Part shown: positions 607 to 9,870 of the stretch, piece after piece
Numbering within the stretch: position 1 is the first letter of the stretch
Layout of the letters: every line of letters begins with the position of its first letter
Source of the DNA: Actinomycetospora chiangmaiensis DSM 45062
GTDB taxonomy: Bacteria > Actinomycetota > Actinomycetes > Mycobacteriales > Pseudonocardiaceae
Length of the DNA stretch: 64,000 nt
Direction: 5' to 3'
Assembly: GCF_000379625.1 (NCBI RefSeq)
Contig: NZ_KB903227.1
Span: forward strand, 185-64,184
Translations under genes and position numbers: made by a program
The notes under the pieces: generated by a model
Told to the model about the DNA's origin: nothing
What the model saw: only the letters and a program-made list of their open reading frames with translations
Database searches by the model: none

Positions 607-3600
607 TCAGGCGGCGTCGACGGGCTGGGCGTGCTTGGTGATGTCGTGGAGGATGTCGACGATCACCTCGACGTCGTTCTCGGGGAAGAAGCTGTCGATC
701 CCGTCGGCGCCCTGATCGATGTATGGGGTTTCGAACAGTCGACCGGGCTCCATGAGCCCGCTTGCTGTGAGTTCGTCGACGATCATGTTGACGAATCGGA
801 TCTGGTCGAGGGTGAACCGGGTGTCGTCGAGGTAGGTGGCGAAGGCCTCGACTGCCGCGCTTCGGTCGAGTCCGACGAGCGACCGGATGAAGCGGCCAAG
901 GCCGTGCGCTTGTTCGACGGCCGTGTCAATGTCGGTCTGCTCCCCCGCACCGCTGGCCACCAGCATCGCCTCCAGCTGCTCGAGGTCCAAAGGCGTCAGC
1001 TGAAGGTTCCGGCGCAGACGCTGGAGGGCCGCATGGTCCTCGTGAGCGCGTAGGTAGGCGGTCGCCTTGGCCCGGAACCGCTCGGGATTCGTGCCCGGTG
1101 TGGTGCCGGGGAGGCTGACCTCGACGGACTGCCCGAGCTCGTCGGTGAAGTCGCTGTAGACGGGATCACGGCGGATCTTGTCGACGAGCCGGACCAGGCC
1201 TCGGACCTTCACCCGGACCTGCTCGAGCATCGGCAGGGTCACGTCGACCCACCACTGGTCGCCCGCGACGTCCTCGAGCAACTCCTGCTGCTGCGCGACC
1301 GACGGGATCGTCGTCTTGCCCAACAGCGCCGAGCAGATCCCCTGGATCGACTCGCGGAGGCGCTCGACGGCGACCGCATCGCCCTCGAGCTGAGCGAGCT
1401 GTCGGCGCAGCACCAGGAGGTCGAAGCGCTTTGCGTCCTCCTCGTCCTTCGTCGCGGACGACGGCAGGCCAGCGAGCTGCTCGACGACGGCACGTGCGTC
1501 GTCGTCGGACAGCGCGCTCCAGGCGTCGCGCTGCGCGAACTTCTCCACCCACGCGCGATGAGGTCGGACGAGGACGTTGTCGAGGCTCATCCCGACGACG
1601 AACTCGTGCAGCGTCGTCGCCGTGCTCTCCCGCAGCGCGCCATCGGCCTTGGTGGCGTCGAGTGCGCGGACCAGCCCGACGCGGTGCTCGACGAGCCGCT
1701 GGGTCAGCGACTTCTGCACCGAGCCCTCGACGCCGGGCAGGTTCTGGTTGAAGTACTCGAGGTTGCCGCAGAAGTCGAAGACCAGGAAGTCGGTCTTGTC
1801 CTGGCCGGGACCGAACAGGTCAGGCCGCAACCGCGTGCCCCGACCGATCATCTGCCAGAACTTGCTCTTCGAGCGGACGGCCTTGAAGAAGACGAGGTTG
1901 ACGACCTCGGGCACGTCGATCCCGGTATCGAGCATGTCGACCGAGATCGCGAGGTGCGGGCCCTTCACGGGGTTCGAGAAGGAGTCGATCAGGTGCTGGG
2001 CGTACGGCGTCCCGTGGGTGATCACGGCGGCGAACTCGCCCGCGTACTGCGGCCACTGCAGGTCGAAGCGCTGCTGGATGAACTCGGCGTGTGCCTGATT
2101 CTTAGCGAACACGATCGTCTTGCCAAGCCGGTCACCGCCGGCGACCTTGTAGCCCCTCTCCATGACCTCGGCGAGGACCTTGTCGACCGTGTCCTCGTTG
2201 AACAGGAACTTGTTGATCTCCTCGGCACCGATCTCGTCGGGAGGATCGTCCTCGCCCCAGTCGAGCGCGTCCCATTGCTCCTTCTCTGCCTCGCTCAACC
2301 CGGCGTAGGTGATGCCGTGGCGCAGGAACTTCGTGCCGATGGCGACGCCTCGTGGCGGCACGAGGTACCCGTCGTCGACGGCCTGCTGGAGGTCGTAAGC
2401 GTCGGTGGGGACTCCGTCCTCGAGGTGGAACAGGTGGTAGGTGTTGTGGTCGACCTCGTCCTTCGGGGTCGCCGTCAGCCCCACGAGCAGCGCGTCGAAC
2501 CACTCGAAGATCGCCCCGTACTTCTGGTAGACCGACCGGTGCGCCTCATCGATCACGACAAGATCGAAGTAGCCCGGGCCGAATCGTCGGAGCCCGCCGT
2601 CAGTGGCATTGATGACGTTGAGCATCGTGGGGTAAGTCGCCACGAACACCCGGCCGTCGGTGACCTTCTCGGTGACGAGGTTGACCGTCGTGGCCGCCGG
2701 CAGGTGGGTCTTGAATGCGTTGACGGCCTGGTTCACCAGAGCGAGCCGATCCGCGAGGAAGAGCACCCGCCGCACCCAGTTCGCCTTGAGCAGCTGGTCG
2801 ACCAGGGCAATCACCGTCCGGGTCTTGCCCGATCCGGTGGCCATGACCAGCAGCGCGTCGCGCTGCTTCTCGTCGAGGGCCTGCCCGACGGCCGCGATGG
2901 CCTTGCGCTGGTAGGGACGCTCGACGATCGCGCCGTCGATCGGCGCACCGACGAGCGGCCCCCTCGTCGTGCGGCGCCGAATCATCAGCTCCAGCTCGTC
3001 ACGGGTGAAGAACCCCTGAATCTTGCGCGGCGGGTAGCCACCGACGTCATCCCAGAGCCAGTGCTCATACCCGTTGGTGAAGAACACGACGGGGCGGCGG
3101 CCGAACCTCGCCTCCAGGCAGTCGGCGTAGAGGTCAGCCTGGTGACGCCCCTCGTGGGCGCTCTTCGTCGTGCGCTTGGCCTCGACCACCGCGAGCGGGA
3201 GCCCGTCCTCGCCCCACAGGACGTAGTCGACGAGGCCCTTACCGCTCTCGTTGGGCATCCCTGTGACCTCGTACTCGCGGTCGTGCGGGTTGGCCAGCGG
3301 CCAGCCCGCCTCGGCGAGGAGGACGTCGATGAACAGGTCGCGGGTCTCGGCCTCGGTGTAGTCGTGTTCGTCGACCGTGGTCTTCTTCGTCGCCTGCGCA
3401 GCCTGAATCTGGGCGCGCAGCTCGGCGATCTCGGCAGCCTGCGCCTGGGCGACATCGTCCTTCTCGGCGAGGGCCTTGGCGTGCGCCGCGTCCTGGGCAG
3501 CGAACTTAGCGGCCAACTTAGCGACGTCGTCGCGGCTGAGCGGCGCGGCCTTCGCCGCGAGCGCCGGGTCGAACTGCGCCCGCGTCGGAACCGCGTCCGG

Positions 3601-3975
3601 ATCGGTCGAGTACCGGAACGCCGCCCACACCATCACGTGGTGGAGCTCGCGCAGGACATCCTGGGCGACGCGCGGCGGCATCGACCTGTTCTCGTGCACC
3701 GCAGTGTTGCCGACCTTGCGGATCAGGTTGAGCTTCTGAGTGATGCTTTGGCCAGCCTCCGCGGTGAAGGCACCCTGATTGATCCGCGCCGCCAGGTCGT
3801 CCTTGTACGGCGTCGGCAGGTTCAGCACTCGGTAGAGGTGCCCGACGAGCACCTCAACGGCGCGACGGCTGTAGAAGCAGGCCGCGCTCGGGTCGCTCGC
3901 CATGTACGACTCCGCCCGACGGCAATCACCGGCCATCGACGGCAGCGTCGCCTCGACGAAGTCAAAGTTGCCCAT
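607..3975 (-). CDS. hsdR: Type I restriction enzyme R subunit (HsdR) with N-terminal DUF4145-like domain
   Basis: This 1122-residue protein is the ATP-dependent translocase and nuclease subunit of a type I restriction system. Residues 1-120 resemble DUF4145, a helical module often found in front of HsdR. A short coiled region follows, then the nuclease domain with D250 and the E265-A-K267 triad of a PD-ExK fold. The helicase core has Walker A MATGSGKT at 378-385 and DEAH at 476-479, and the C terminus fits the EcoEI R_C type. All key residues are present and the length is normal for this subclass. It is the third gene of hsdM-hsdS-hsdR; its ATG overlaps the hsdS stop as TAATG, implying translational coupling. 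Confidence 0.95.
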   Translation of the reverse strand: MGNFDFVEATLPSMAGDCRRAESYMASDPSAACFYSRRAVEVLVGHLYRVLNLPTPYKDDLAARINQGAFTAEAGQSITQKLNLIRKVGNTAVHENRSMPPRVAQDVLRELHHVMVWAAFRYSTDPDAVPTRAQFDPALAAKAAPLSRDDVAKLAAKFAAQDAAHAKALAEKDDVAQAQAAEIAELRAQIQAAQATKKTTVDEHDYTEAETRDLFIDVLLAEAGWPLANPHDREYEVTGMPNESGKGLVDYVLWGEDGLPLAVVEAKRTTKSAHEGRHQADLYADCLEARFGRRPVVFFTNGYEHWLWDDVGGYPPRKIQGFFTRDELELMIRRRTTRGPLVGAPIDGAIVERPYQRKAIAAVGQALDEKQRDALLVMATGSGKTRTVIALVDQLLKANWVRRVLFLADRLALVNQAVNAFKTHLPAATTVNLVTEKVTDGRVFVATYPTMLNVINATDGGLRRFGPGYFDLVVIDEAHRSVYQKYGAIFEWFDALLVGLTATPKDEVDHNTYHLFHLEDGVPTDAYDLQQAVDDGYLVPPRGVAIGTKFLRHGITYAGLSEAEKEQWDALDWGEDDPPDEIGAEEINKFLFNEDTVDKVLAEVMERGYKVAGGDRLGKTIVFAKNQAHAEFIQQRFDLQWPQYAGEFAAVITHGTPYAQHLIDSFSNPVKGPHLAISVDMLDTGIDVPEVVNLVFFKAVRSKSKFWQMIGRGTRLRPDLFGPGQDKTDFLVFDFCGNLEYFNQNLPGVEGSVQKSLTQRLVEHRVGLVRALDATKADGALRESTATTLHEFVVGMSLDNVLVRPHRAWVEKFAQRDAWSALSDDDARAVVEQLAGLPSSATKDEEDAKRFDLLVLRRQLAQLEGDAVAVERLRESIQGICSALLGKTTIPSVAQQQELLEDVAGDQWWVDVTLPMLEQVRVKVRGLVRLVDKIRRDPVYSDFTDELGQSVEVSLPGTTPGTNPERFRAKATAYLRAHEDHAALQRLRRNLQLTPLDLEQLEAMLVASGAGEQTDIDTAVEQAHGLGRFIRSLVGLDRSAAVEAFATYLDDTRFTLDQIRFVNMIVDELTASGLMEPGRLFETPYIDQGADGIDSFFPENDVEVIVDILHDITKHAQPVDAA

Positions 3976-5108
3976 TAGAGTTCCCCTCGGAACGCCCGCA
4001 CCTCCAGCGAGGAATGAAGCGCCTCGCCCATATCCAACCCTCTATATGCAGCGACTAACCGCATGTCGATCATATTCGCTCGCCGCGCGAACTCTTGCTG
4101 CAGGTCCAGCGGCGGAATTAACACCCGGAACCTCCTCGCTACGCGCTGATAGATGGTTTTGTGAATCGACCCGTCGCTCAAGCTGAGCAGGTGCGACCGA
4201 GACGCCCGAAGGGCCGTCATCAGGTACGTTGAATCGATCTCCGGACCCGGTACCCAGTTGTGAAAATCCTGAGAAGTGGCCATCGGTCGACCTAACTTGG
4301 TCACAAATCCGACCGACGCGGTTCGAGAAAAGCAAACCGTGCCCTCCGGCAACAGAACGGCGGAGGAATTATCGATACCCGCTCTGGTGACCCGAATTTC
4401 GGTGTCGTTAACCGTCTTGCCGTCAAGTCGGCGAATCTCCGGCAACGAGACCCAAGGAATATCACCTTGCCAGTATTCGGGTCGTCCGCGATCCGGGGTG
4501 TGCCCTGTCGCCAACTCAGCGACCTCATCGAGGCGAGTCCACGACCAACCCTGAGAGGTAGGATCCGCCTTGCGATCGGTAACAGCACGGGAGCTTCTCG
4601 GCCCGAACATCTCTCGAAAAATGGAAAGCACGAGGTGTTCAAGGTTTTGGACGACTTCACCCCTTCGAGCAAGGACGACTTCCGACCGGTCTAGAATCTC
4701 GACGATTCGATCTTGCTCCTCGAGACTCATGCGTGGAATATCAATCCTCTTCAGGAACTTGAAGTGGCGAGCGTAGCCTTCACTTGATAGATTTCGCGAT
4801 CTCAAGAAATGATAAATGAACTTCGTCCGAAACCCACTCTTCGCGCGTAGGACCTTTACACCATCAGCGCCCATGGCGAAGGGAAAATCAACAAGCTTCA
4901 ATATTCTAGTATGGTCACCGAACACGATAAGCGCCCCGGGAGTTGCGACCTGACAGCTCATATCGTGAGTGAATCCCGCGACGAGCTGGCGCCCCTGGTC
5001 GACAACTGCCAGAGGCCCTGAAGTTTGAAGATCCGATTTCGGGACCTTCCTATTTCCGCGGGAGACGTCCTCAACGGCGTCCATAAAGGCAACATGTTCG
5101 ACCATCAT
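3975..5108 (-). CDS. hsdS: Type I restriction system specificity subunit (HsdS)
   Basis: A 377-residue DNA target-recognition subunit that directs HsdM and HsdR. The second half is a recognisable target-recognition domain (GWSWTRLDEVAELATGHTP, then GDIPWVSLPEIRR). The middle has the conserved spacer helix SLEEQDRIVEILDRSE with a following helix LEHLVLSIFREMFG. The first recognition domain is short and lacks the usual opening of about 20 residues, so it may be clipped or start earlier than usual. The ATG start overlaps the hsdM stop as ATGA. The gene is clearly richer in A and T than its neighbours (for example around 4740-4860), which suggests it was swapped in from a different background, as is common for hsdS. 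Confidence 0.9.
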   Translation of the reverse strand: MMVEHVAFMDAVEDVSRGNRKVPKSDLQTSGPLAVVDQGRQLVAGFTHDMSCQVATPGALIVFGDHTRILKLVDFPFAMGADGVKVLRAKSGFRTKFIYHFLRSRNLSSEGYARHFKFLKRIDIPRMSLEEQDRIVEILDRSEVVLARRGEVVQNLEHLVLSIFREMFGPRSSRAVTDRKADPTSQGWSWTRLDEVAELATGHTPDRGRPEYWQGDIPWVSLPEIRRLDGKTVNDTEIRVTRAGIDNSSAVLLPEGTVCFSRTASVGFVTKLGRPMATSQDFHNWVPGPEIDSTYLMTALRASRSHLLSLSDGSIHKTIYQRVARRFRVLIPPLDLQQEFARRANMIDMRLVAAYRGLDMGEALHSSLEVRAFRGEL

Positions 5109-6610
5109 GAAAGCAGCGCCCTGAGCTCGGCTAACGCCTTCGCGCTCTCCTCCTCGAGCGTTTCGAGATCGGCGATAATTTGGAGCGGCGGACGATGGTT
5201 GATATTACTGTCTTTGACCTCTCGATAGCGACTGAGTGATAGGTCATAGTCTTGCTCAGCGATGCTAGACTTCGCTACTACGAACGACTGTTCCGTGCGG
5301 TCACGCTCACGTTCTAGGCCGTTCCGCTCGGACCATCGATCCAGAACGTCTGGCAGATCGTCAGACTCGATTGGATTACGCTTGTCGTCGAGCGAGAAGC
5401 CATCGGCGCGAACATCGTAGAACCAGACATCGTCAGTGCCGCCATTATCGGTCTTTGTGAAGAAGAGGATAGCTGTTGAGACCCCTGCGTAAGGGCGAAA
5501 CACGCCAGCAGGAAGCTTCACAACGGCATCAAGCTTCTGATCCTCCACTAGGATGCGACGAATCTCCTTGTGCGCCTTTGAGGCCGTGAACAGTACGCCG
5601 TCCGGGACGATAACTGCCGCCTGACCACCCGGCTCCAGTAGGCGGAGGAACAGCGCAAGGAAGAGCAGCTCTGTCTTCTTGGTCTTGACGACCTGCTGGA
5701 GGTCCTTCGCCGTTGACTCGTAATCGAGCGAGCCGGCGAAGGGCGGGTTGGCCAGGATCAGCGTGTAGCGGCCGGTCTCCTCGCTAGCGCCCTCGGACAG
5801 CGAGTCGCGGTATCGGATGTCGGGCGCGGCGACCCCATGCTGGAGCATGTTCATGCTTCCGATGCGCAGCATGGTCGAGTCGAAGTCGAACCCGTGAAAC
5901 ATCCGGTGATGGAAGTGCTGCCGTTGGCCAGCATCGGTGCCGACCGACGGGTACTTGTCACGGACGTACTCGGCGGCGGAGACGAGGAAGCCAGCCGTTC
6001 CGCACGCCGGGTCGCAGATCGTGTCGCCCACTTGTGGCGCCGTCATCCGCACCATGAGGTCGATGATGTGCCGCGGGGTACGGAACTGGCCGTTGACGCC
6101 AGACGTCGAGAGCTTGGAGAGCAGGTACTCGTAGAGGTCACCGTTTGTGTCCGGCTTGTCGCGCGGAATCGCATCGAGCAGGCCGACAACCTTGTCCAGC
6201 AACGCAGGGCTCTGGATGGTGAACCGGGCGTCGCCCATGAACTCCGAGTAGGTCGAGCCGTCTCCACCGAGCCGGCGTACAAAGGGGTACACCTCATCGG
6301 CCACCCGCTGGTACATCGTCTCGGGGTCGAGCATCTTGAACTCGGTCCACCGGAGGCCCTGCTCGTCGGGAGCGAAGATCGGGTCCTTGACGGGCTCCTT
6401 GGTGACGCGAGCCGTGCGCTCCTTGAGGCGCTGCTCGTGGTCGAGGCGCTGGATGAAGAGCAGGTTGGTGATCTGCTCGATCACCTCCAGCGGGTTGGAG
6501 ATGCCGCCCGACCAGAAGGCGTTCCAGACCCCGTCGATCTTGTTCCGCAGCTCCCCCGTGATCACGGGCACAGCGTAGTAGCTGACCGATCGGCCTTGGG
6601 AGCCCGACAC
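5105..6610 (-). CDS. hsdM: Type I restriction system adenine methyltransferase (HsdM)
   Basis: N6-adenine methyltransferase of 501 residues that protects host DNA and forms the core of the complex. The N-terminal helical domain includes WNAFWSGGISNPLEVIEQIT and LLFIQRLD. The SAM-binding motif DPACGTAGF is at 200-208 and the catalytic NPPF at 288-291. First gene of the operon, followed by hsdS with an ATGA overlap. I use the GTG at 6610; a second GTG in VPVITGELRNKIDG would give a start closer to the usual family N terminus. The last third of the gene (5105-5600) shares the lower GC content of hsdS. A possible promoter lies just upstream at 6665-6693. Confidence 0.95.
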   Translation of the reverse strand: MSGSQGRSVSYYAVPVITGELRNKIDGVWNAFWSGGISNPLEVIEQITNLLFIQRLDHEQRLKERTARVTKEPVKDPIFAPDEQGLRWTEFKMLDPETMYQRVADEVYPFVRRLGGDGSTYSEFMGDARFTIQSPALLDKVVGLLDAIPRDKPDTNGDLYEYLLSKLSTSGVNGQFRTPRHIIDLMVRMTAPQVGDTICDPACGTAGFLVSAAEYVRDKYPSVGTDAGQRQHFHHRMFHGFDFDSTMLRIGSMNMLQHGVAAPDIRYRDSLSEGASEETGRYTLILANPPFAGSLDYESTAKDLQQVVKTKKTELLFLALFLRLLEPGGQAAVIVPDGVLFTASKAHKEIRRILVEDQKLDAVVKLPAGVFRPYAGVSTAILFFTKTDNGGTDDVWFYDVRADGFSLDDKRNPIESDDLPDVLDRWSERNGLERERDRTEQSFVVAKSSIAEQDYDLSLSRYREVKDSNINHRPPLQIIADLETLEEESAKALAELRALLS

Positions 6611-6693: not shown

Positions 6694-6794
6694 CGCCGTA
6701 CGACTGATGATCGACTCCGTGGGGCACCGTCACTGACCAGCGCCGATGCTCACCACAGCCCACGGTGGCGACCGTGAACCCAGTCCACTGGGTT

Positions 6795-6822
6795 CGGGGT
6801 TCGAGTCCCTGACGGCGCACCC
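6795..6822 (+). other. 3' tRNA fragment (Lys-type T arm and acceptor), putative att site
   Basis: CGGGG-TTCGAGT-CCCTG (6795-6811) folds as a five-pair T stem with a standard T loop, followed by ACGGCGC, discriminator A and CC. This is the 3' part of a tRNA with acceptor GCGCCGT, typical of actinobacterial tRNA-Lys as I recall it. No D arm or proper anticodon arm precedes it; upstream is only a small hairpin (GAACCCAG/CTGGGTTC, 6775-6794). Integrases that use tRNA 3' ends leave exactly such a fragment at the far end of the inserted element. A terminator hairpin directly follows, as behind a native tRNA gene. Confidence 0.65.
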
Positions 6823-6828
6823 CGACAT

Positions 6829-6859
6829 GAAGGCCCTGACCGGTGCGGTCAGGGCCTTC
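6829..6859 (+). terminator. Hairpin terminator after the tRNA fragment
   Basis: A perfect 12-bp stem, GAAGGCCCTGAC pairing with GTCAGGGCCTTC, around a 7-base loop. It has no U-tract, which is normal in high-GC actinobacteria. Its place right behind the tRNA 3' end suggests it is the original tRNA terminator. Confidence 0.65.
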
Positions 6860-7030
6860 GTCGTGTCTGCATCTTGTGTACCCCGCCGCTCCCTCCGGGC
6901 GGACGGACGGGTCCGAAACGGACGTCCGACGCAGGTCGGCGCGCTGAGTTCGTCCGGATGCCCGTCGTGCGGGTCCGTCCCCGGGAGCAGGCTGGTCGCG
7001 AACGGGAAGGCGGAGGCACAGGGGGGAACG

Positions 7031-7564
7031 ATGACCACGGAGGACCGGACGGGGCCCGACCTCGGAGCGGTGTTCGACGAGCACGTCGCCGACGAGTTCG
7101 TCGTGCAGGACGTGGCCGCGACGATGGCCACGATGACGCCCGAGCCGACCGTGCTGCACGTGCCGAGCGGCGCCGGCGGCTCCGGGCAGGAGGCCGTGGC
7201 GGCGTTCTACACCGACCACTTCATCGGGCAGTGGCCGGACGACACGGTCATCACCCGGCTGTCGCGCACCGTCGACGCGGAGCGGGTGGTGGACGAGATG
7301 TTCATGACGTTCACCCACGACCGCGTGATCGACGCCTTCCTGCCCGGGGTGGCGCCCACGGGCCGGCCGGTGGAACTGCTGGTCGTGGGCATCATCGGGT
7401 TCCGCGACGGCCTGGTCGACTACGAGCACCTCTACTGGGACCAGGCGTCGTTGCTGGTCCAGATCGGGTTGCTCGACCCGGCGGGGCTGCCGGTGCTGGG
7501 GGTCGAGCAGGCCCGCGCGCTGCGTCCGGCGGCCGTCCGGGTCGGCGCCGAGCTGCCCGGCTGA
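7031..7564 (+). CDS. NTF2-like (SnoaL-type) protein
   Basis: A 177-residue cytosolic protein with the pattern of the NTF2/SnoaL fold: an N-terminal helix (VFDEHVADEFVVQDVAATMATM), the repeated strand pattern TVLHVPSGAGG, the helix QEAVAAFYTDHFIG and a final strand pair VVGIIGFRDGLVDYEHLYWDQASLL. Such proteins are small cyclases, isomerases or ligand binders; nothing here fixes a substrate. The ATG at 7031 is preceded by a G-rich stretch usable as a ribosome site. The DUF4239 gene starts one base after the stop, so the two are very likely cotranscribed. First gene to the right of the tRNA scar. Confidence 0.8.
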   Translation: MTTEDRTGPDLGAVFDEHVADEFVVQDVAATMATMTPEPTVLHVPSGAGGSGQEAVAAFYTDHFIGQWPDDTVITRLSRTVDAERVVDEMFMTFTHDRVIDAFLPGVAPTGRPVELLVVGIIGFRDGLVDYEHLYWDQASLLVQIGLLDPAGLPVLGVEQARALRPAAVRVGAELPG

Positions 7565-7565
7565 C

Positions 7566-8345
7566 ATGTCGGGCTGGCCGATCTGGCTCCTCGGCCTCCT
7601 GCTGGTCGTGGGCATGCCGGCGCTGGTCGTCGTCGGCCAGGGCGGACTGCGGCGGGCCTGGCCCGCGCTGCGCGACGGCGACCACAACGAGGTGGCCGGC
7701 TTCATCATCGCGGTCGTCGGGGTGATCTATGCAGTCCTGCTGGGCTTCGTGGTGATCGTGAGCTGGGAGAACTTCAGCCAGGCCGAGCACGTGGTGGGGC
7801 AGGAGGCCAGCGCGCTGCGCACGATCTACCGCGACAGCGCCGCCTTCCCGCCGCCCGTCCGCGAACGGGTCCACGGCGAGGTGCGGACCTACGCGGCCGC
7901 CGCGGTCGAGAGCGACTGGCCGGCGATGGCCCGCGGCGAGCCGGGCTCGCCCGAGACGGCCCACGCGCTCGACGACATCTCCGAGTACCTGGCCACCATG
8001 CCCGCGACCACCCCGGACGAGCTGCAGTACAAGCAGGTCGAGGCCGATCGCCTGAACGACCTGGTCACGGCCCGCTCGGCGCGCCTGGACTACGTGACCC
8101 AGGGCGTCCCCGGCGTGCTGTGGCTGGCGCTGATCGTGGGCGCCGCCGTGACGATCGGCTTCACCATGATCTTCGGGCTGGGCAGCGCGGTGCTGCACAC
8201 GGTGATGACCGCCAGCCTCGCGGCGCTCATCGGGGTGCTGCTGTTCGTCGCCGTCGCCATCGACCACCCGTTCGCCGGTGGGGTCGCGGTCCATCCCGCG
8301 CCGCTGGAGCGCGTCCTCGACGACTTCGGCGCTCCGCCTCCCTGA
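7566..8345 (+). CDS. DUF4239 (bestrophin-like) membrane protein
   Basis: A 259-residue inner-membrane protein. An N-terminal membrane helix (IWLLGLLLVVGMPALVVV, about 5-23) is followed by the family stretch NEVAGFIIAVVGVIYAVLLGFVVIV (about 43-67) and WENFSQAEHVVGQEASALRTIYRDS. A soluble loop follows, then two C-terminal helices around 180-240. This matches DUF4239, a family distantly related to bestrophin-type channels, whose function is not established. It lies between the NTF2-like gene and the SIR2-like gene on the same strand, 76 bases before the latter. Confidence 0.85.
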   Translation: MSGWPIWLLGLLLVVGMPALVVVGQGGLRRAWPALRDGDHNEVAGFIIAVVGVIYAVLLGFVVIVSWENFSQAEHVVGQEASALRTIYRDSAAFPPPVRERVHGEVRTYAAAAVESDWPAMARGEPGSPETAHALDDISEYLATMPATTPDELQYKQVEADRLNDLVTARSARLDYVTQGVPGVLWLALIVGAAVTIGFTMIFGLGSAVLHTVMTASLAALIGVLLFVAVAIDHPFAGGVAVHPAPLERVLDDFGAPPP

Positions 8346-8421: not shown

Positions 8422-9870
8422 ATGACGCGTGGGCACGTCTTCGTGGTGCACGGCGACCTGACCCAGCTGGCGTGCGACGACGTCGTCGTCCCGACGGACT
8501 CCGCGGGCCAGGTCAGCCCGAACTGGCACCGTCTCGTCCCTCGGGACCGAGAGCCCTGGGGCGAGGGGATCTGGCCGCTCGACGCCGGGTCCGGGTCGCC
8601 GTGGGCGGCCTCGTCCTACACCGCCGCCGTCCGCGACGTCCTCGACGCCGTCGCCGCGGACCAACGCGGTCGACCGCCCCGCCGGGGCCGGTCGCGCCAC
8701 CTCACCGCCGTGCCGCTGGTGGGTGCGGGGCGAGGGGACGCGGGATCGCGTCGGGGCGACGTCATCGCGGCCGTCCTCGAGGTCCTCGAGGCGCACGCCG
8801 ACGCCGGGCACGACGTCGCTCTGGTGCTCCGCTCGGCACGCGACCACGCCGCGGCCCAGCACGTGCGGCGCGGTCGGTCGCAGCACCGGCTCACCCCGGC
8901 CGAGGTCGCCACGGCCGAGGACCTCGCGCAGCGGGCCCGGGTCAACGAGCTCGCGCTGTTCCTCGGCGCCGGGGTGAGCATGAGCGCCGGTCTCCCGTCG
9001 TGGTCGATGCTGCTCGACCAGCTGGCCCGTCGCGCGGAGATCCCGGCGGCGGACGTCGCGGAGCTCCGCCTGCTGCCGGCCCAGGACGCGGCGATGCTCA
9101 TCGAGCGCCTGCTCCGCGAACCGCTCGAGGACGCCCTGGCCGCGGTGCTGTCCACCCACCGGTACGGCCTCTCCCACGCCTTACTGGCGGCGCTGCCCAT
9201 GTGGGAGGCGGCGACGACGAACTACGACGACCTGTTCGAGCGCGCGCTGGCCGCGGTCGGGCGGGCTCCCGCGGTCCTGCCGTTCGAACCGGTGCGCGCC
9301 GACCGGCCCTATCTGCTCAAGCTGCACGGGGATCTCGCGCGTCGGCGCAACGTCGTCCTGACCCGCGACCACTACCTGCGCTTCGAGGGCGCGCAGGGCG
9401 CCCTGGCCGGGGTGGTGCAGGGCCTGCTCATGACCCGCCACGTGCTGTTCGCCGGGTTCTCCCTGGCCGACGAGAACTTCCTGCACCTGGCCGACGAGGT
9501 CCGCCGCGTCCGGGAGGACGACCGGGTGCTGGGCACCGCACTGGCCCTGCTCGACGAGCCGCTGCGCCGCCGGATGTGGGAGGGCGAGCTGCGCTACCAG
9601 GCCTTCGCCGAGCGCCCCGACGACCCGGCGCGCACCGACGCGGTGGTCGCGGACGCGGCCCGCCGGATGGAGATCTTCCTCGACCTCGTCGCGCACCACG
9701 CCACAGACGACGCGTCCTTCCTGCTCGACGACCGGTACCAGCACCTGCTCACCCCGGACGAGCGCGCGTTCACCGGTGCCGTCACGAAGCTGCGCGACTT
9801 CCCGTCACCGGGGAGCGTCGCCGGACGCCGGGTCGAGGCACTGCTCCACGAGCTCGGGATGCGCCCGTGA
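8422..9870 (+). CDS. SIR2-like protein with N-terminal macro-like domain
   Basis: A 482-residue protein in two parts. Residues 2-160 start with HVFVVHGDLTQLACDDVVVPT and later contain LTAVPLVGAGRGDAG. The first resembles the GDIT-xxx-VDAIVN opening of macro (ADP-ribose-binding) domains; this assignment is tentative. Residues 175-360 are a SIR2-like NAD-binding domain: GAGVS (182-186), TTNYDD (265-270), KLHGD with H302, and GFSLADENF (345-353). Bacterial SIR2-like domains often work as NADases or ADP-ribosyl enzymes in phage defence. The ATG at 8422 has GGGAG eight bases upstream; a longer start at 8278 would overlap the DUF4239 gene. Length and domain order differ from ThsA (SIR2-SLOG). Confidence 0.8.
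   Translation: MTRGHVFVVHGDLTQLACDDVVVPTDSAGQVSPNWHRLVPRDREPWGEGIWPLDAGSGSPWAASSYTAAVRDVLDAVAADQRGRPPRRGRSRHLTAVPLVGAGRGDAGSRRGDVIAAVLEVLEAHADAGHDVALVLRSARDHAAAQHVRRGRSQHRLTPAEVATAEDLAQRARVNELALFLGAGVSMSAGLPSWSMLLDQLARRAEIPAADVAELRLLPAQDAAMLIERLLREPLEDALAAVLSTHRYGLSHALLAALPMWEAATTNYDDLFERALAAVGRAPAVLPFEPVRADRPYLLKLHGDLARRRNVVLTRDHYLRFEGAQGALAGVVQGLLMTRHVLFAGFSLADENFLHLADEVRRVREDDRVLGTALALLDEPLRRRMWEGELRYQAFAERPDDPARTDAVVADAARRMEIFLDLVAHHATDDASFLLDDRYQHLLTPDERAFTGAVTKLRDFPSPGSVAGRRVEALLHELGMRP

Follow-up and report, generated by a model that had tools for sequence, protein, structure and literature searches.

A macro-like domain fused to a SIR2_2 domain in Actinomycetospora and its actinobacterial relatives, a candidate single-gene effector

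Introduction

The SIR2 NADase effectors known so far depend for their gating on SLOG domains, Argonaute, HerA or phage proteins. In the genome of Actinomycetospora chiangmaiensis DSM 45062, one protein is made up of a macro-type N-terminal domain and a SIR2 domain, and the locus raises the question of what such a protein would read, what it would do in response, and whether it acts with the genes that surround it. The gene lies in a stretch of 64,000 nucleotides, referred to here as the window, and coordinates given without a locus name are positions in that stretch. The gene, here called Macro-SIR2, and the parts of its product are as follows.

8422..9870, plus strand: gene for the macro-like and SIR2_2 fusion protein, an open reading frame of 482 amino acids with a full-length family of ~48 homologues
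8422..8901, plus strand: N-terminal macro-like domain, residues ~1-160, from comparison of homologue profiles with macroH2A
8914..9564, plus strand: SIR2_2 domain, residues ~165-381, from Pfam, the PADLOC ThsA model and PDB chains of ThsA, DSR2 and KomC
9565..9867, plus strand: C-terminal tail of ~100 residues without a named domain, alignable across the family (dN/dS 0.13 over residues 401-482)

Results

The SIR2 half of the window protein is assigned to SIR2_2 (PF13289) by Pfam with an E-value of 8.8e-26, is matched by the PADLOC ThsA model (E 1.3e-28), and finds chains of ThsA (E 1e-14), DSR2 and KomC in the PDB. No PADLOC model spans the whole protein; the matches all fall within residues ~166-367, and the N-terminal part is left without a match. 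The GAGxS, TTNYD and LHGD motifs that the original prediction had read as intact are all present within the SIR2_2 domain, as GAGVS (residues 182-186), TTNYD (265-269) and KLHGD (300-304). The catalytic-type residues Asn-267 and His-302 are the counterparts of Asn-112 and His-152 of ThsA, whose N112A and H152A mutants have lost NAD cleavage (PMC7272460). Asn-267 is kept in 49 of 49 alignment rows and His-302 in 47 of 49, and this conservation suggests that the window protein may cleave NAD. In the two remaining homologues, L021 9140-10693 (KLNGD) and L081 8575-10158 (KINGD), asparagine takes the place of the catalytic histidine, and these are possibly inactive or altered variants. Comparison of the window gene with its closest homologue, that of locus L009 (88% protein identity), gave an overall dN/dS of 0.24, with values of 0.31 for the N-terminal part, 0.23 for the SIR2 part and 0.13 for residues 401-482, the first two indicating purifying selection on both halves. 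The L009 gene shares the start at 8422, and the family alignment begins at the same point.

In the N-terminal half, single-sequence Pfam searches found nothing over residues 1-160 of the window protein and no macro match in single family members. Profiles built from homologues behaved differently: the N-terminal part of a profile of 10 homologues reached the macro domains of macroH2A with a best E-value of 1.7e-7, and a profile of 22 homologues improved this to 1.6e-8, with five macroH2A sequences below 0.001 and a further match to the Thermus macro protein TTHA0132 (E 0.0032). The macro-like N terminus proposed from the sequence was thus recovered with homologue profiles and not with single sequences. 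The alignable domain starts with HGDLTQLACDDVVVPTD in the window protein and QADIASIDSDAVVHPTN in macroH2A, and the glycine loops align as VGAGRGDAG and IGSGRNGFP, respectively. AlphaFold2 models made from a two-sequence input had pLDDT values of 42.5 for the full protein and 47.1 for residues 1-165, and searches with the low-pLDDT N-terminal model in Foldseek and VIA-align 2 returned no significant match, with no macro domain among the rows listed. Because the models are unusable and the fold searches uninformative, it is the profiles by themselves that support the assignment of the N-terminal half as a macro domain. For macro domains of the macroH2A-like group, the literature describes binding of ADP-ribose compounds with no catalytic activity (PMC11204291), and for this reason the similarity to macroH2A favours a reader over an eraser as the likely role of the macro half.

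Searches through genomes of the genus, family, order, class and phylum yielded ~48 distinct actinobacterial homologues, matched from end to end by the two-domain profile, so the fusion is a fixed architecture; intact homologues retrieved with the profile of the N-terminal part also have the SIR2 part. Macro-SIR2 occurs in 4 of 18 genomes of the genus and is sporadic in most families. In family f89 it is near-universal, with a gene order common to its loci and a non-island setting. In the tree, the window clade, which includes L009 and L020, is the neighbour of the f89 core clade, a placement of modest support (82/90). One f89 copy (L050/L077 of genome G710) is split by a frameshift inside the SIR2 part, and the same-genus copy at L020 9525-10901 (minus strand) has an early stop codon that removes the last ~35 residues. 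The viral contigs searched contained one SIR2-only relative and no relative of the macro part, and matches in plasmids and phages were partial and centred on SIR2.

Upstream of the fusion gene, on the same strand, the window contains a short leader and two genes that had been suggested as possible partners.

6900..6996, plus strand: leader segment, 77% identical to L009 9807-9903 (E 2e-15)
7031..7564, plus strand: NTF2/SnoaL-like gene, a neighbour (PF12680, E 1.5e-7)
7566..8345, plus strand: gene for a DUF4239/Bestrophin-like membrane protein, a neighbour (PF14023, E 4e-69)

The gaps of 1 base (NTF2-like to DUF4239) and 76 bases (DUF4239 to fusion gene) agree with those first reported, and this tight, same-strand spacing is what speaks for the original proposal that the three genes form one membrane-linked module. 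The comparisons speak against it: at the loci of the nine homologues tested, no NTF2-like or DUF4239 gene adjoins Macro-SIR2, and relatives of the DUF4239 gene, mostly of 61-79% identity, are found in 13 congeners with neither partner adjacent. In L009 the shared leader stands directly before Macro-SIR2 with both genes missing in between, so the block was either inserted in the window or lost in L009. From these comparisons of homologues, L009 and congeners, the row is most likely a positional coincidence and the NTF2-like and DUF4239 genes are most likely unrelated neighbours; we consider a three-gene module extremely improbable, and this part of the original prediction is abandoned.

Further to the left lies the boundary of an island, with the following features.

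607-3975, minus strand: HsdR of a type I restriction-modification set
3975-5108, minus strand: HsdS of the same set
5105-6610, minus strand: HsdM of the same set
~6786-6850, plus strand: 3' part of tRNA-Lys(CTT) with terminator, a probable attachment-site remnant (98% over 55 bases)

The tRNA-linked boundary that had been noticed in this position is the tRNA-Lys remnant. The intact tRNA-Lys locus sits on another contig of the same genome, and over 55 bases the remnant shares 98% identity with it. The complete restriction-modification set (607-6610, minus strand) lies to the left of the remnant, and together they are probably an integrated element, whose other boundary lies beyond the end of the contig. 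This type I restriction-modification island beside the fusion gene is the only defence evidence in the window genome itself.

The surroundings of the relatives are richer. Many of the non-core relatives lie in defence islands with DISARM, Hma, Druantia, Dnd-type or TmtA genes, the neighbours including DrmA of DISARM (L094), HmaA (L080), DruE of Druantia (L082), TmtA (L079) and a DndH-like protein (L087), with NERD helicases and REase-ARP nucleases as further neighbours in non-core loci. These neighbours support a defence role for the family, as originally suspected, and by analogy a defence role may be supposed for the window copy. Nuclease genes stand next to Macro-SIR2 at L020 (8488-9186), L094 (9371-11785) and L079 (9324-11537); those of L020 and L094 match REase-ARP/PDDEXK_13 (PF22558, PF20796), and the L079 gene is related to that of L094 by clustering. 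Related large SMC/AAA ATPase genes, each with a small gene, stand beside Macro-SIR2 in the distant loci L020 (12331-14721) and L022 (11073-13547).

A second group of neighbours processes ADP-ribose. An ADP-ribosylglycohydrolase gene near Macro-SIR2 is shared by 11 loci, most of which also have an NrtR-type Nudix gene and often ARPP-1 and an HD protein; in one member that was scanned, the glycohydrolase is fused to a dual-specificity phosphatase domain. NrtR-type Nudix proteins belong to a family of NAD regulators. In the 27 carrier genomes there are six ARPP-1 genes, and all six are found at the Macro-SIR2 locus. Glycohydrolase genes were found in 18 of these genomes, within 7 kb of Macro-SIR2 in 9 of the 18 (expected 0.07) and within 50 kb in 13 (expected 0.43), the expectations being those of a random-position model that ignores a shared preference of both genes for islands. 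With close relatives merged, the counts are 7 of 14 within 7 kb and 10 of 14 within 50 kb. The loci with linked ADP-ribose-processing genes are spread over several deep branches of the tree. Searches of the window genome for ADP-ribosylglycohydrolase, ARPP-1 and TIR_2 found none of the three.

Among known systems, Macro-SIR2 would work most like ThsA. It shares with ThsA of type I Thoeris (SIR2-SLOG) the SIR2_2 NADase domain family and the equivalent Asn and His residues. In contrast to type I ThsA, where the sensor is a C-terminal SLOG domain, the putative sensor here is an N-terminal macro-like domain; Pfam and PADLOC gave no SLOG or TM-macro match in the window protein, in which only the tail of ~100 residues follows SIR2. 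ThsA of TM-macro Thoeris has, like Macro-SIR2, a macro domain as probable nucleotide sensor (PMC11204291), whereas its effector part is a transmembrane domain rather than SIR2. Both kinds of ThsA differ further from Macro-SIR2 in that no TIR_2 partner is nearby here: the TIR_2 search came up empty in the window genome, and in 27 carriers it found no such gene closer to Macro-SIR2 than 35 kb. With no TIR_2 gene near and a different effector architecture, membership in Thoeris was rejected. DSR2, KomC and other defence sirtuins share a SIR2_2-type NADase domain by sequence, and their non-SIR2 parts have no match in the window protein. The SirTM-macrodomain pairs and fungal Mfs1 likewise join a sirtuin to a macro domain, as paired genes in bacteria and as a fusion in fungi (PMC4518038). 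In class M sirtuins, QG replaces the catalytic His (PMC4518038); of the 49 rows of the Macro-SIR2 alignment, 47 have HG and two have NG, and a class M assignment was therefore rejected. The FAM118 paper has a figure legend in which SIR2_2 proteins are marked as bearing a Macro domain (PMC12700824), and going by that label these probably have the same architecture, so the combination is not wholly unrecorded. Of the original claim of a new layout distinct from ThsA, the fusion and its difference from ThsA are supported by the profile matches and the fixed architecture. No published description of the family or of its linkage was found in the literature searched, in which coverage of ARPP-1 was incomplete.

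Discussion

We propose, at roughly even chances, that Macro-SIR2 is a single-gene effector that combines a macroH2A-like, ADP-ribose-reading macro domain with a SIR2_2 NADase like those of ThsA and DSR2, acting on its own and probably in defence. The macro domain would bind an ADP-ribose-type metabolite or adduct arising under phage attack or stress, binding of the ligand would release or assemble the SIR2 domain, and the SIR2 domain would then hydrolyze NAD+ and so stop growth. In many relatives the adjacent ADP-ribosylglycohydrolase, NrtR-type Nudix protein and ARPP-1 may clear the ligand or set its level, and the window copy would work without these partners. The absence of partners from the window genome counts against such a macro-gated defence effector, as do the near-universal, syntenic and housekeeping-like f89 copies, the replacement of the catalytic His by Asn in two homologues and the low pLDDT of the AlphaFold2 models. 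A more specific version holds that the family is a TIR-independent defence of Actinomycetota, in which an ADP-ribose derivative, sensed by the macro domain, activates the fused SIR2 NADase, the linked glycohydrolase, Nudix and ARPP-1 proteins serve as an off-switch or clear the ligand, and the window copy represents a relative that stands alone; this we hold only tentatively, as a rather doubtful possibility.

Three other readings of the protein were weighed against these. It could have a housekeeping role in regulating NAD or ADP-ribose metabolism instead of serving in defence, which would suit the near-universal and syntenic f89 copies, the position of the window clade next to f89 (at modest support) and the NrtR-type Nudix neighbours of relatives, with their membership in a family of NAD regulators. 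We nevertheless regard it as unlikely, given the sporadic occurrence elsewhere, including only 4 of 18 congeners, the defence-island neighbours of many non-core loci and a SIR2 half that is closest to defence NADases. The SIR2 half could instead ADP-ribosylate a target and the macro half take the mark off again, in the manner of SirTM systems and fungal Mfs1. The pairing and fusion of sirtuin and macro domain known from those systems (PMC4518038) and the glycohydrolases near relatives fit such a reversible modification, but the histidine that class M sirtuins replace is kept in nearly all rows, the PDB search listed ThsA, DSR2 and KomC but no SirTM, and the best macro relatives are of the macroH2A type, for which binding without catalysis is described (PMC11204291). 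A protein that both writes and erases the mark is therefore decidedly unlikely.

The last of these readings keeps the logic of Thoeris, with the macro domain responding to an ADP-ribose signal produced by a TIR protein. TM-macro ThsA likewise employs its macro domain as a sensor (PMC11204291) and the SIR2 half resembles ThsA, but TIR_2 genes, the one TIR family searched, occur in 9 of 27 carrier genomes and in none of them within 35 kb of Macro-SIR2, and we consider a TIR-fed effector very unlikely.

The reading that we prefer, a stand-alone effector gated by its macro domain, concerns a small protein encoded by a single gene and is easy to test. If it is true, a macro-gated SIR2 NADase near ADP-ribose-processing genes would suggest that ADP-ribose chemistry itself is sensed as an infection signal in bacteria.
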